From the NCBI RefSeq assembly GCF_007744675.1, contig NZ_CP036269.1, positions 6,189,046-6,253,045 on the forward strand: 64,000 nucleotides of DNA. The letters run 5' to 3'. The notes below the pieces were generated by a model, which did not search any database, was not told the DNA's origin, and saw nothing but the letters and a program-made list of their open reading frames with translations. Source of the stretch: Gimesia alba (lineage in GTDB: Bacteria; Planctomycetota; Planctomycetia; Planctomycetales; Planctomycetaceae). Shown in pieces: positions 5,670-9,670 of this stretch. How positions within the stretch are numbered: position 1 is the stretch's first letter; each line of letters opens with the position of its first letter. Position numbers and translations under genes: made by a program.

Positions 5670-7790
5670 ATGGCCCCTAAAGCTTCGAAATATCTCAACC
5701 GGGAATTAAGCTGGCTGGAATTTAATCAGCGAGTATTAGATGAAGCCCATGACCCCGACATTCCCCTGCTGGAACGGCTGAAATTTCTGGCCATTACCAG
5801 TTCGAACCTGGATGAATTTTTCATGGTCCGCGTCGGCGGACTCCATTTACTACAGGCCAGCGGAAATACGACATCCGATCCGTCCGGGATGACTCCCAAA
5901 GAAACACTGGATGCCATCAGCCTGCGAGCGCATCATATGATGGTGGAACAATATCAGTGTCTCCTGAAAGAAATTGAGCCCCCTCTGGCCGAAGCCGGAT
6001 TTCAAAGGGCAAATCCACAGGAACTGACGGATGCGCAACGGCGAATTGTCGAACATGTTTTCAGAGATGAAATTTATCCCGTGCTGACCCCCATGGCGGT
6101 CACGTCTGATATGGAATTCCCCTATCTGGTAAATCACACATTGAATCTCGTGGTTCGCCTGGCACCGGATGAAAAATCGGAAACACCACAGGATCGGTTT
6201 GCCATTATCCCGTTTGGGAGACCAGAATTTCGGTTTATCACACTCCCTTCGGAAGGCGGCTATCAGTATTTACCATTAGAAGACGCCGTCTGCCTGTTTG
6301 TCGAACAATATTTTGGAGGTGAGCATGTCCTGGAAAGTATTCCTTTCCGTGTCACCAAAAATGCCGACGTCAGTTTGCAGGATGAATTTGCCTCTGATCT
6401 ATTGCACCAGATGGAGGACATGCTCGATCAACGGAAGCAGGGAGATTGTATCCGGCTGGAAATTGCTGAAGCCGTCTCGGTAGAGACGTTGGAATTCCTG
6501 GAGCGGGGTTTAGGCGTTCTCGATGAAAACGTCTATCGGATTCCCGGTCCACTGGATCTCACCGCGTTTATGCGGTTGACGGACATTTCGGGGTTTGATG
6601 CGCAGAAAGATGTGAGCTGGCCTCCTCAACCTTCGCCTGAAGTGAATCCTCGGATCAGCATGTTCGAGAATATTTCTCAGCAGGACATTCTGTTATGCCA
6701 TCCCTATGAAAGCTTTGAACCGGTTGTCCGATTGATTGAAGAAGCAGCCGTGGACCCGGATGTACTGGCGATTAAACAGATTTTGTATCGCACCAGCAAG
6801 CGCAGTCCGATTGTCGCCGCCCTGATTCGCGCCGCGGAACAAGGCAAGCATGTGACCGCCATCGTGGAACTCAAAGCACGCTTTGATGAAGCACGCAACA
6901 TCGAATGGGCCAAAAATCTGGAGCACGCGGGCGTGCAGGTCATCTACGGCGTCAAAGGGCTCAAAACACACGCCAAAGTCTGCTGTATTGTCCGTCGTGA
7001 ACCGCAGGGAATTCAACGCTATCTGCACTTCGGTACGGGTAATTACAACGATGCCACCTCGAAAATCTATAGCGACATCAGTTATTTCACTTGCGACGAA
7101 TTTTTGGCCTCGGATGCAATCAACTTCTTCAATTCAATTACCGGTTATTCTTTACCTCAGAAATATCAGAAGCTGGAAGCGGCCCCCATCAGCTTACGAG
7201 ATAAAATCCTGGACCTGATTCATCACGAGACCGAACGCAAAAAACAGGGACAGAAAGCGCGGATTATCGCCAAGGTTAATTCACTGGTTGACCCGGAAAT
7301 CATCAATGCCTTGTACGAAGCATCGGAAGCGGGTGTCAAAATCAAACTGAATATTCGCGGCATCTGCTGCCTGCGGCCCGGCGTTTCCAAATTGAGTAAG
7401 AATATCGAAGTGGTCAGCATTATCGACCGCTTCCTGGAACACGCGCGGATTTTGTATTTCTATCACGGCGGCGACGAACGGGTTTTCATTTCCAGTGCTG
7501 ACTGGATGCCTCGCAACCTGGATCGGCGAGTGGAATTACTGGTTCCCATTGAAGAAGAAAATTGTCATCGGAAAGTGATTAAGATTCTGAACACCTATTT
7601 TGAAGATAACGCCAAGGCCCGTGTCCTGAATAGTGATGGCGTCTACGAGCGCATTACTCCGAACAAGGAAAAGAACCTCGTTCGCTGTCAGCAAGTGCTG
7701 TATGAAGAAGCAGTGGCAGCAATCAAGCAGGCAGAAAAAGCAGGTCGTACCGTCTTCGAACCACATATGGCACCCGAAGACCAGAAATAG
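5670..7790 (+). CDS. ppk1: Polyphosphate kinase 1
   Basis: 706 residues, the normal Ppk1 length. The N-domain begins with YLNRELSWLEFNQRVLDEA, a near-invariant Ppk1 signature. The autophosphorylated histidine is H453 in LHFGTGNYND, and the second essential histidine is H599 in FYHGGDERVFISSADW, followed by MPRNLDRRVEL. The enzyme reversibly transfers the ATP gamma-phosphate to growing inorganic polyphosphate at the membrane or nucleoid. Together with the upstream Ppx and ROK kinase it forms a polyphosphate synthesis/use module. No PHO-type operator was recognised upstream. Confidence 0.97.
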   Translation: MAPKASKYLNRELSWLEFNQRVLDEAHDPDIPLLERLKFLAITSSNLDEFFMVRVGGLHLLQASGNTTSDPSGMTPKETLDAISLRAHHMMVEQYQCLLKEIEPPLAEAGFQRANPQELTDAQRRIVEHVFRDEIYPVLTPMAVTSDMEFPYLVNHTLNLVVRLAPDEKSETPQDRFAIIPFGRPEFRFITLPSEGGYQYLPLEDAVCLFVEQYFGGEHVLESIPFRVTKNADVSLQDEFASDLLHQMEDMLDQRKQGDCIRLEIAEAVSVETLEFLERGLGVLDENVYRIPGPLDLTAFMRLTDISGFDAQKDVSWPPQPSPEVNPRISMFENISQQDILLCHPYESFEPVVRLIEEAAVDPDVLAIKQILYRTSKRSPIVAALIRAAEQGKHVTAIVELKARFDEARNIEWAKNLEHAGVQVIYGVKGLKTHAKVCCIVRREPQGIQRYLHFGTGNYNDATSKIYSDISYFTCDEFLASDAINFFNSITGYSLPQKYQKLEAAPISLRDKILDLIHHETERKKQGQKARIIAKVNSLVDPEIINALYEASEAGVKIKLNIRGICCLRPGVSKLSKNIEVVSIIDRFLEHARILYFYHGGDERVFISSADWMPRNLDRRVELLVPIEEENCHRKVIKILNTYFEDNAKARVLNSDGVYERITPNKEKNLVRCQQVLYEEAVAAIKQAEKAGRTVFEPHMAPEDQK

Positions 7791-8127
7791 ACCGAACCAC
7801 TTGCGAACCTCGTGTGTCACTACACAGGAAATCAGTACTTTTTTGCAGAATGAAGTTGCGAAATATCACGCTGTGTGAAATTCTGATGAATCGATAAATC
7901 CATATCCTGTTCAGACAGAATAGGTTACGGATGACAGCTTTTACCGGTTCCGAGAATTTCCTCGAGTTCACTGCAAAAAGGTATTGCCTCAATCTGGGGA
8001 ATGGTAAAAATAAGAGTAGATCATGTCTCGCACCCACGCAGTGCGATAGGACTAAAGCCTGTGTTCTAGTTGGAGCTACATACCGATGAAGAAACAGGGA
8101 GTTTATCCAAGAAAAGGAGGTGATTGA

Positions 8128-8169
8128 GTGGACAGTTATTGTTGTAGCCAGAAAGGTGGTTGTTCTTAG
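8128..8169 (+). CDS. Cysteine-rich 13-residue micro-ORF
   Basis: GTG at 8128 lies about five bases after the extended Shine-Dalgarno sequence and opens a frame encoding MDSYCCSQKGGCS, stopping with TAG at 8167. Three of 13 residues are cysteine. A second frame is also open through the hairpin (stop TGA at 8207; it would read ...WTVIVVARKVVV...), but it lacks a well-placed start codon. The product could be a metal-binding micropeptide or a leader whose translation governs the RNA fold. No structural gene follows on this strand, so a classical attenuator for a downstream operon is unlikely. Confidence 0.35.
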   Translation: MDSYCCSQKGGCS

Positions 8170-8240
8170 CGACTACTGGCGGGTTGTCATCGACAACCAC
8201 CACTCGTGAGGATCACCTCGATCCTAACGAAAATTGAACG

Positions 8241-8279
8241 GAGGCTGACCTGCCTGAGCGTAGGTCAGCCTCTCTTTTT
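8241..8279 (+). terminator. Rho-independent terminator of the small RNA unit
   Basis: An 11-bp perfect stem (GAGGCTGACCT 8241-8251 with AGGTCAGCCTC 8262-8272) is followed by CTTTTT. Confidence 0.85.
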
Positions 8280-8298
8280 AAAAGTTTGCAGTGCCTGC

Positions 8299-8342
8299 AA
8301 AAAAACAGCACCGGAATCATTTTCCGGTGCTGTTTTTTTTTT
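8299..8342. terminator. Bidirectional terminator
   Basis: A 12-bp stem (ACAGCACCGGAA with TTCCGGTGCTGT) is flanked by seven A on the left and ten T on the right. It can end transcription from both sides: the small RNA unit and the convergent oxidoreductase gene. Confidence 0.88.
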
Positions 8343-8371
8343 GATCAATCTGCTGACTCGTTGCAGTTGCC

Positions 8372-9670
8372 TTAGACTTCGTTGGGTACAACAAAAGGCT
8401 TGCGATACTGACGTGTCAGATATTTATCCGCTTCCGGATCATTCACAAACTGCTCCGTTTTGGGATCAAAATTCAACTGGCGTCCCAAGCGGAATGCGAT
8501 GTTGCCCAAATGGGCAATCCCAGAACTGGTGTGAGCCGTTTCCACAGGACCATTCAAAGTCTCTGCTTTTCGTGATCGGACCGCGTTCAGGAAGTTCGTA
8601 AAGTGAGCTTCTACCGGATCGTCGCCACTATTCTTGGGGCCTGGCTCTCCCTTTCGTCCCAGAAAGATCTCATAAGAGTTATACCCTTTCACAACCATAT
8701 AACCTTCTGAGCCGTAGAAGATATTCCCGACCGAAGCCCCCCCTTCACTATTCGTCATCCAGGGACGGACTTCAAACTGAATCATTTTGTTTTCTTCAGG
8801 ATAGAAGTAGTTGGTGGAAAGCACTTCCGGCGTTTCCTTATCGTCATCCCAAAGGAACTTGCCTCCCATGGCGGTGATTTGCGAAGGCAGCTTGACATCC
8901 AGCCCCCACAGGCACATATCGGTCTCATGCACGCCCTGGTTTCCGACGTCGCCGTTCCCATAATCCCAGGTCCAGTGCCAGTTATAATGCACCAGACGGC
9001 GGGAGAAATTGGTTTCCTGAGCGGGGCCTTGCCAGAGATTCCAGTCCAAGTAAGCAGGTGCCTTCTCATCCGGTTTGTGGCCGATGGAGGGTCGCCAGCG
9101 GAAGACCAGACCGCGTGCCATATACACATCACCAATCGTGCCTTTGCGAAGATGTTCCACACCTTCCTGGATCGCAGGCTGACTGCGAAGCTGAACGCCG
9201 TGCTGCACGATGCGTTTGTATTTCTTCGCCGCCTCAATCATCTTGCGGCCTTCGAATAGATTATGTGAACCCGGTTTTTCCACATAAACATCTTTACCGG
9301 CCTGACAGGCCCAGATCGTCGCCAGGGAATGCCAGTGATTGGGAGTCGCTACCGTCACCACATCAATGTCATCCCGGTCGAATACCTTCCGCATGTCTGT
9401 TTCGGTTTCGACCTTGCGACCGTATTTTTTCTCAAATTCCGCAGCCCGTTTTGCCAATACCTGTTCGTCAGGATCACAGAGCAACACGACATCTGCACCT
9501 TCAATATTGCCAATGGCTTTGATATGCGTACGACCGCGGCCATTAACTCCCAGAACGGCGACTCTGATCTTTCCGTTCACATCGGCCCGTGCTGTGCTCC
9601 CCAGCAACGATGTTGCTGCCACTGCCCCCGCACTGGTTTGAAGAAAATTACGTCGTGTGACTTCACTCAT
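8372..9670 (-). CDS. Tat-exported Gfo/Idh/MocA family oxidoreductase
   Basis: 432 residues. A twin-arginine signal (TRRNFLQ at 5-11, then a hydrophobic Ala-rich stretch) precedes a Rossmann fold whose glycine motif is VAVLGVNGRGRTH. The EKP motif of the family is present (VYVEKPGSH), and the C-terminal alpha/beta domain includes 'NYFYPEENKM'. Members oxidise or epimerise sugars or inositols with NAD(P) bound before export. The substrate cannot be read from sequence. Planctomycetes carry many such paralogues; another lies at 24097 and a cytoplasmic relative at 14565. It is monocistronic. Confidence 0.88.
   Translation of the reverse strand: MSEVTRRNFLQTSAGAVAATSLLGSTARADVNGKIRVAVLGVNGRGRTHIKAIGNIEGADVVLLCDPDEQVLAKRAAEFEKKYGRKVETETDMRKVFDRDDIDVVTVATPNHWHSLATIWACQAGKDVYVEKPGSHNLFEGRKMIEAAKKYKRIVQHGVQLRSQPAIQEGVEHLRKGTIGDVYMARGLVFRWRPSIGHKPDEKAPAYLDWNLWQGPAQETNFSRRLVHYNWHWTWDYGNGDVGNQGVHETDMCLWGLDVKLPSQITAMGGKFLWDDDKETPEVLSTNYFYPEENKMIQFEVRPWMTNSEGGASVGNIFYGSEGYMVVKGYNSYEIFLGRKGEPGPKNSGDDPVEAHFTNFLNAVRSRKAETLNGPVETAHTSSGIAHLGNIAFRLGRQLNFDPKTEQFVNDPEADKYLTRQYRKPFVVPNEV

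Follow-up and report, generated by a model that had tools for sequence, protein, structure and literature searches.

A candidate Planctomycetota RNA family combining an extended Shine-Dalgarno sequence, a micro-ORF and covarying helices

What is encoded by a short intergenic stretch of the Gimesia alba genome in which an extended Shine-Dalgarno (SD) sequence leads into a very short frame, several hairpins and a terminator? The stretch lies within a window of 64,000 nucleotides, the whole piece of DNA that was analysed and to which the positions below refer. It looks like a stand-alone RNA gene of ~260 nt on the + strand at ~8018-8280, or about C1:6197063-6197325 on its own genome. Upstream is a + strand frame (5670-7790) that is presumably polyphosphate-kinase-like, and downstream is a convergent − strand frame (8372-9670) that we take to be Gfo/Idh/MocA-like. 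From 5' to 3' the order of parts is a sigma-70-like promoter, a structured 5' domain, the extended SD, a 13-codon GTG frame, a hairpin domain and a terminator, and the predicted fold energy of 8060-8285 is 4.9 standard deviations lower than that of dinucleotide shuffles. A first-pass annotation of the sequence had described the part at 8112-8279 as a unit of ~170 bases with a perfect 12-base anti-anti-SD, a GTG-started 13-codon frame, two mutually exclusive hairpins of 9 and 7 bp with a common strand, and an intrinsic terminator, all without a structural gene behind it. These elements hold up in the analysis given here, and a promoter-like sequence and structured 5' domain upstream (~7984-8110) are added to them.

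The distribution of the locus was examined by searches of increasing reach. A DNA search with 8000-8300 found it in all 17 genus genomes searched, the other 16 having 89-96% identity over 256-301 of the 301 bases, and gave weaker significant matches in other families. A pattern search matched 32 of 198 genomes of the class, and when the loci were read, more families proved to share the anatomy. Loci L032-L038, from seven family f2 genomes, were left out, as their SD-like pattern falls at one place of an apparent conserved protein-coding stretch and is unrelated to the RNA. A covariance model, R1, was built from 16 sequences and matched 144 of 170 family genomes at E<=0.1 and 124 at E<=1e-3, mostly with one match per genome; ~25-base matches with E values of 0.014-0.02 are probably due to chance, and the number to be used is therefore 124, not 144. 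Across the phylum, R1 matched 44 of the 392 genomes drawn (E<=1e-3), and a second model, R2, built from a set of distant homologues (alignment A6), matched 77 of 392; 30 of the R2 loci (L220-L249) were read by eye. The two models match the same place in 17 common genomes, 12 of which are outside the R2 training alignment, and together they account for 104 of 392 genomes (44 + 77 − 17), taking both draws as the same genomes. One match included in this total (L178/G477, outside the homologue rows described below) is probably chance. Because filtering was strict in both phylum searches and 8-10 candidates were scored in each genome, genuine copies may have escaped them.

When 84,980 species were scanned for AAGGAGGTGATCCAGTG followed after 25-55 bases by CCGACGGG, 28 loci were found. 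Records titled as planctomycetes (Phycisphaerales, Phycisphaeraceae, Gemmataceae and others) contain 27 of them, and one is in a record titled Cyanobacteria bacterium. The latter (L189, RHKP01000017.1) is a Phycisphaerales-like copy with a micropeptide, MKMSDCTGGLRR, identical to that of a Phycisphaerales record; its genome bin is probably mislabelled or mixed. The window, 76 model matches and these 28 loci make up the 105 homologue rows used below, including two duplicates (L170 = L200 and L173 = L205). Judged from these sequences, the recurrence of the same anatomy in distant families is conservation beyond chance. The locus is almost certainly one copy of an undescribed Planctomycetota RNA family without an Rfam entry, usually present as a single copy per genome.

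The 5' part of the RNA gene appears to begin with a sigma-70-like promoter on the + strand at 7984-8011 (−35 TTGCCT, 7984-7989; −10 region TAAAAAT, 8005-8011), from which we infer a transcription start near 8018. A strict consensus promoter scan of the window found none. The pattern TTG[ACT]N-N15-19-NANNAT occurs upstream in 51 of 70 Planctomycetia-type rows, compared with a mean of 3.8 and a maximum of 8 in shuffles. It is followed in the window by a 5' hairpin on the + strand, TCGCAC-CCACGCA-GTGCGA (8028-8046), whose conserved part is the loop ACGC; 40 of the 71 Planctomycetia-type rows have a stem of at least 5 with the loop NNACG[CT][AG], where 0.5 would be expected. Two further + strand stems, whose layout is similar in relatives, were read by eye: P2 (CCTGT 8058-8062 with ACAGG 8094-8098) and, inside it, P3 (GTTGG 8069-8073 with CCGAT 8083-8087, including two G-U pairs). 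An alignment of 23 distant homologues (A7) also gives a 5' hairpin and then an enclosing stem with an inner hairpin, and 14 of its 18 predicted pairs have compensatory changes, in a structure derived from the same rows and without a shuffle control. The hairpin in A7, whose stem covaries and whose GACG loop is invariant, is at the same place as the 5' hairpin of the window. A7 holds 23 of the 31 rows extracted: L170, L173 and L189 were removed as doubles or near-doubles, and L193, L195, L200, L204 and L211 as diverging by eye. An upstream frame at 8087 (ATG AAG AAA CAG) was considered and rejected, as by eye its DNA is conserved within the genus but the frame is not kept in distant relatives. 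Complementarities between GACTGT in the ORF and ACAGTC downstream, and between the 5' loop and the core, had no consistency when read by eye.

The extended SD, AAAAGGAGGTGATT (8112-8125, + strand), contains the 12-base AAAGGAGGTGAT that the annotation had called a perfect anti-anti-SD. A pattern search of the organism's own genome for the 16S 3' end did not find it, so the tail letters used here for SD/anti-SD matching are the generally accepted ones. At least 11 contiguous bases of the complement to this tail are present in 94 of the 105 rows. The micro-ORF, MDSYCCSQKGGCS, follows at 8128-8169 on the + strand, with a GTG start, 13 codons and a TAG stop. A frame of 10-18 codons (the parser accepts 9-20) is open close behind the SD in all 105 rows, with 94 GTG, 6 ATG and 5 TTG starts, in a collection found by two models and a scan pattern that favour or require a start codon. 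When the start codon was kept and later bases were shuffled, a frame was found in 30 rows on average (maximum 41), and in 12 rows (maximum 18) when everything after the SD was shuffled. Of the 59 Planctomycetia-type rows that could be anchored, 56 have a distance from the start to the ORF-end helix described below that is divisible by 3 (24, 27, 30, 33, 36 or 42 bases); nine rows, the window included, did not fit the anchor, and for the distant homologues an anchor of this kind proved ambiguous in G runs and was set aside. The frame is kept in L099, L141 and L142, with its phase shifted relative to the helix. Translation of the micro-ORF is judged very probable.

The end of the frame is also part of a structure. 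In the window, GGTGGTTGT at 8155-8163, which holds the Gly-Gly-Cys codons, can pair over 9 bp with ACAACCACC at 8193-8201 (+ strand) to form what is termed here the ORF-end helix. The 7-bp hairpin A (GGTTGTC 8182-8188 with GACAACC 8192-8198, loop ATC, + strand) overlaps its 3' strand, and it is the overlap of 8192-8198 with 8193-8201 that makes the two pairings mutually exclusive. Five pairs of the ORF-end helix, GGTGG:CCACC, are paired in 94.0% of alignment cells, with 8 double-change cells compared with 0.6 in shuffles; slid by 3 columns the helix is still 77-79% paired, with less covariation. A 9-bp counterpart was examined in the 30 distant homologues of A6, which holds 30 of 36 distant loci (L195, L175, L176 and L177 were removed as irregular by eye, and L170 and L173 as doubles; L195 is without a clear near helix). 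It is paired in 95.5% of cells, compared with 32-55% in slid controls, and its 14 double-change cells were reached by none of 500 shuffles and its 5 double-change pairs by 4 of 500. Tested one sequence at a time, the ORF-end helix beats shuffles (at most 2 of 40) in 42 of the 105 rows, mostly distant ones. Lineages that rewrite the helix alter both strands, for example GGGGAAGC/GCTTCCCC in L185, TGTGCTGCCTGA/TCAGGCAGCGTG in L137 and GGGCTGCGCA/TGCGCAGCCC in L174. In distant homologues an inner hairpin is nested inside the ORF-end helix, so the window's exclusive switch is not universal. In family f32 (L233, L234, L242-L244 and L246), a large part of the micro-ORF's second half (CTATCAGGAGGTGGGTTC in L233) is apparently complementary, by eye, to the downstream strand, which looks like a longer version of the same helix.

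Between the stop codon and the hairpin is the motif CTGGCGGG (8176-8183, + strand), a variant of the consensus YYGRCGGG. Within 60 bases after the stop, 61 Planctomycetia-type rows have 50 copies of CG[AG]CGG, compared with 5.8 expected, the window itself having TGGCGG; GACGG is invariant in A6, but the search pattern selected for it in most A6 rows. Hairpin B, TCGT-g-AGGATC-ACCTC-GATCCT-a-ACGA, is at 8204-8230 on the + strand. Hairpins A and B together with a small stem were assessed in 67 distinct Planctomycetia-type rows, in an alignment that was fitted to the tested structure. In these, 84.7% of cells are paired (23-45% in slid versions), 21 of 22 pairs are changed on both sides, and there are 130 cells with both-side changes compared with 33 in shuffles. 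All 7 pairs of hairpin A have both-side changes, with 93.4% of cells paired, as do all 10 modelled pairs of hairpin B, with 82.3% and 90.3% of cells paired; the small stem, GCCAG:CTGGC, is the weak part (70.7%). A further alignment, A4, was badly aligned at its 3' end and was not used. The RNA ends in an intrinsic terminator on the + strand (8240-8279), with a 14-bp stem (8240-8273) and a T run, and terminator-like sites are found in 92 of the 105 rows, compared with 20-27 in shuffles.

Does this anatomy belong to an RNA that is already known? The only match to Rfam 15 at the gathering threshold in the window is a tRNA elsewhere, and there was none in 13 distant loci (95,459 bases). When 7791-8371 was scanned permissively, the 16 matches obtained were all under the gathering score, and a known Rfam family was ruled out by the lack of any gathering-score match in the RNA stretch or the 13 distant loci. 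6S RNA (RF00013) was ruled out, the one match in the genome being elsewhere (C1:6118244-6118425; 39.6 bits, where the cut-off is 46.4). The same applies to tmRNA (RF00023), which is found above its cut-off at C1:2669019-2669375 (162.8 bits); its weaker matches, among the matches listed, are also elsewhere than the window RNA. A short open frame and overlapping pairings are present, which may correspond to the translated frame and alternative hairpins of a trp-type attenuator leader; a regulated downstream gene on the same strand is not, the next gene being convergent. The peptides, of 10-18 residues and polar by inspection, are not the hydrophobic membrane peptides of a type I toxin mRNA.

The genes around the locus were compared across 77 loci, using mechanically called ORFs of at least 90 aa within at most ~5 kb on each side. 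No neighbour is conserved in place: members of the largest neighbour cluster touch 10 of the 77 loci and are scattered in position, and a few trios of related loci have a common neighbour. Downstream, no gene family is common to more than a few of the loci. A role as the cis leader of a neighbouring gene was ruled out on this basis, and the RNA product therefore probably acts in trans.

A frame that is open in all 105 rows, together with covarying helices, makes a translated, ribosome-responsive RNA the best reading, and we regard it as an evenly balanced judgement that the RNA is a trans-acting, ribosome-gated regulator. Small subunits (30S) would load at the extended SD and translate the micro-ORF, and a ribosome on the last codons would melt the ORF-end helix and free its 3' strand. 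In the clade of the window, the freed strand would let the alternative hairpin form. The RNA would thus have two folds, ribosome-free and ribosome-occupied, one of which would expose a motif for a target RNA or protein; candidates for this motif are YYGRCGGG, the C-rich 3' strand or the 5' loop. It would work, in effect, as an attenuator leader detached from any operon. The annotation had suggested either a self-regulated micropeptide mRNA or a ribosome-sensing RNA; the SD-led micro-ORF and covarying helices are consistent with that suggestion, and SD masking as a general mechanism is not supported. More tentatively, the family may be a phylum-wide housekeeping RNA that senses the pool of free 30S subunits, in which the near-complete complement to the 16S tail would capture a subunit, the frame would convert capture into a change of fold, and targets would be regulated in trans. 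If true, this would be the ribosome counterpart of the role that 6S RNA has for RNA polymerase.

Alternatively, the micropeptide could be the product, the RNA being a small mRNA for a peptide of 10-18 residues with translation tuned by RNA folds. Single-base codon differences at codons −9 to −5 of Planctomycetia-type rows are 39% synonymous in frame compared with 20% and 15% out of frame, values not corrected for relatedness, and this excess supports a selected peptide in these rows. Likewise, SQRGG recurs near the C-terminus and D-C-[TS] is common to distant homologues too. However, the synonymous fraction in Phycisphaerae-type rows (0.158 in frame) is below that in the other frames (0.328 and 0.187) and does not support selection for a peptide, 97 distinct peptides occur among the 105 rows, and the RNA parts are the best conserved. 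We consider it unlikely that the peptide is what the family is kept for.

Repeated CGRCGG and GACG motifs, some of them in loops, raise a different idea, that of a protein-binding sponge or scaffold for a regulator, which translation would clear or load. The 115 bases before the start in 26 Phycisphaerae-type rows hold 47 copies of CG[AG]CGG compared with 8.2 expected, with related rows counted apart, and the GACG loop on its covarying stem is invariant across 23 rows. The 3' copy of the motif in Phycisphaerae-type rows is part of the search pattern, and its count there is therefore by construction. In 61 Planctomycetia-type rows, however, 5' copies are few (20 compared with 11.6 expected), and a sponge seems distinctly improbable.

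The mechanism proposed in the first-pass annotation, in which an internal copy of the 16S tail masks the SD and so regulates its own RNA, fares less well. The copy, GGATCACCTC (8210-8219), can pair with the SD in the window, where the minimum-energy fold uses this pairing, and RNAalifold applied to a 16-row alignment (A3) also preferred an SD:GATCACC helix. The same bases form the 5' arm and loop of the covarying hairpin B, and a larger alignment gave no covariation support to the helix with the SD: 82.3% of its cells are paired, with covariation no better than in shuffles (193 of 500 reach its score and 235 of 500 its percentage paired). Because the 16S tail dictates the SD, little covariation is to be expected, and its lack is weak evidence against masking. 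A downstream Watson-Crick complement of at least 7 bases to the row's own SD is present in 15 of the 70 Planctomycetia-type rows and in none of the 35 others, and is thus absent in 90 of 105; 13 of 70 reach the 0.05 shuffle level, compared with 3.5 expected, and if G-U pairs count as well, this level is reached by 15 of the 70 Planctomycetia-type rows and 6 of the 35 others. GATCACC itself is found in 16 of the 70 rows and in none of the 35. The search for covariation across planctomycete genomes that the annotation had suggested therefore has a split outcome, with hairpins A and B and the ORF-end helix covarying and SD:GATCACC no better than shuffles. Homologues that keep the terminator and lose the SD/anti-SD and hairpin complementarity had been named there as evidence against the proposal; what is seen is half of this, since relatives keep the SD, micro-ORF, ORF-end complementarity and, mostly, the terminator, and most lose the SD/anti-SD pairing. 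Going by these alignments, masking may operate in some lineages and is not a common theme, and as the explanation of the family it is very improbable. A 9-base SD complement, CCACCTCCT, was also observed downstream of the micro-ORF in six loci (L118, L104, L092, L131, L091 and L093), in five of them on the strand paired to the Gly-Gly codons. The SD and the end of the ORF (GAGGTGG) look alike, so one strand could serve both. Finally, a repeat or mobile-element remnant, or chance intergenic conservation, would fit the changing neighbourhoods between loci, but is hardly credible, being already contradicted by the copy number (mostly one match per genome), the deep conservation and the compensatory changes.

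A ribosome-gated RNA that acts in trans can be set beside several known systems. rnTrpL combines a short SD-led frame, exclusive hairpins and a terminator with action of the RNA in trans; it stands at the head of an operon and contains Trp codons. The window RNA has a similar frame, exclusive hairpins and terminator, and trans action is proposed for it; it differs in having no gene following and in its large structured 5' domain. For rnTrpL and peTrpL of Sinorhizobium meliloti, a trp attenuator that encodes a leader peptide acting in trans is described (PMC7298713). In cyanobacteria, yfr6 (the Downstream-peptide motif) is an RNA of ~250 nt with a short frame supported by synonymous changes and indels in threes; its conserved part is the 5' UTR, for which ligand binding is suspected (PMC2864571). 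Both are short-frame RNAs, but on this description yfr6 belongs to another phylum, and the fold of the window RNA runs into and past the frame. The same source lists the Rhodopirellula-1 motif as a structured-RNA candidate of Planctomycetes and Proteobacteria, without an Rfam accession and with the row '? y ?', which we take to mean probably cis-regulatory; it and the window RNA are both planctomycete structured-RNA candidates, compared here by description. Extended SD motifs on weak start codons are described in Staphylococcus aureus, where many small frames were mapped (PMC13009471); they resemble the window RNA in joining a long SD to a non-canonical start, and differ from it in not being a conserved RNA family.

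6S RNA and tmRNA are, like the window RNA as proposed, trans-acting genes of wide taxa, and both have matches elsewhere in this genome, that of 6S RNA below its cut-off. To our knowledge, few structured RNA genes that act in trans are conserved throughout a bacterial phylum. RNA regulation in the Planctomycetota is little studied, and in the open-licence literature on planctomycete small or noncoding RNA, SD sequences, structured RNAs, small ORFs and ribosome profiling, no such RNA is described among the matches listed, as far as their available text goes. The family would tie translation initiation to RNA folding, with an anatomy visible in about a hundred of the genomes examined. The interval separating the RNA from the convergent gene contains another hairpin, AACAGCACCGGAA...TTCCGGTGCTGTT (8300-8342), which has A and T runs around it, looks like a terminator for both strands and is found again in the genus.
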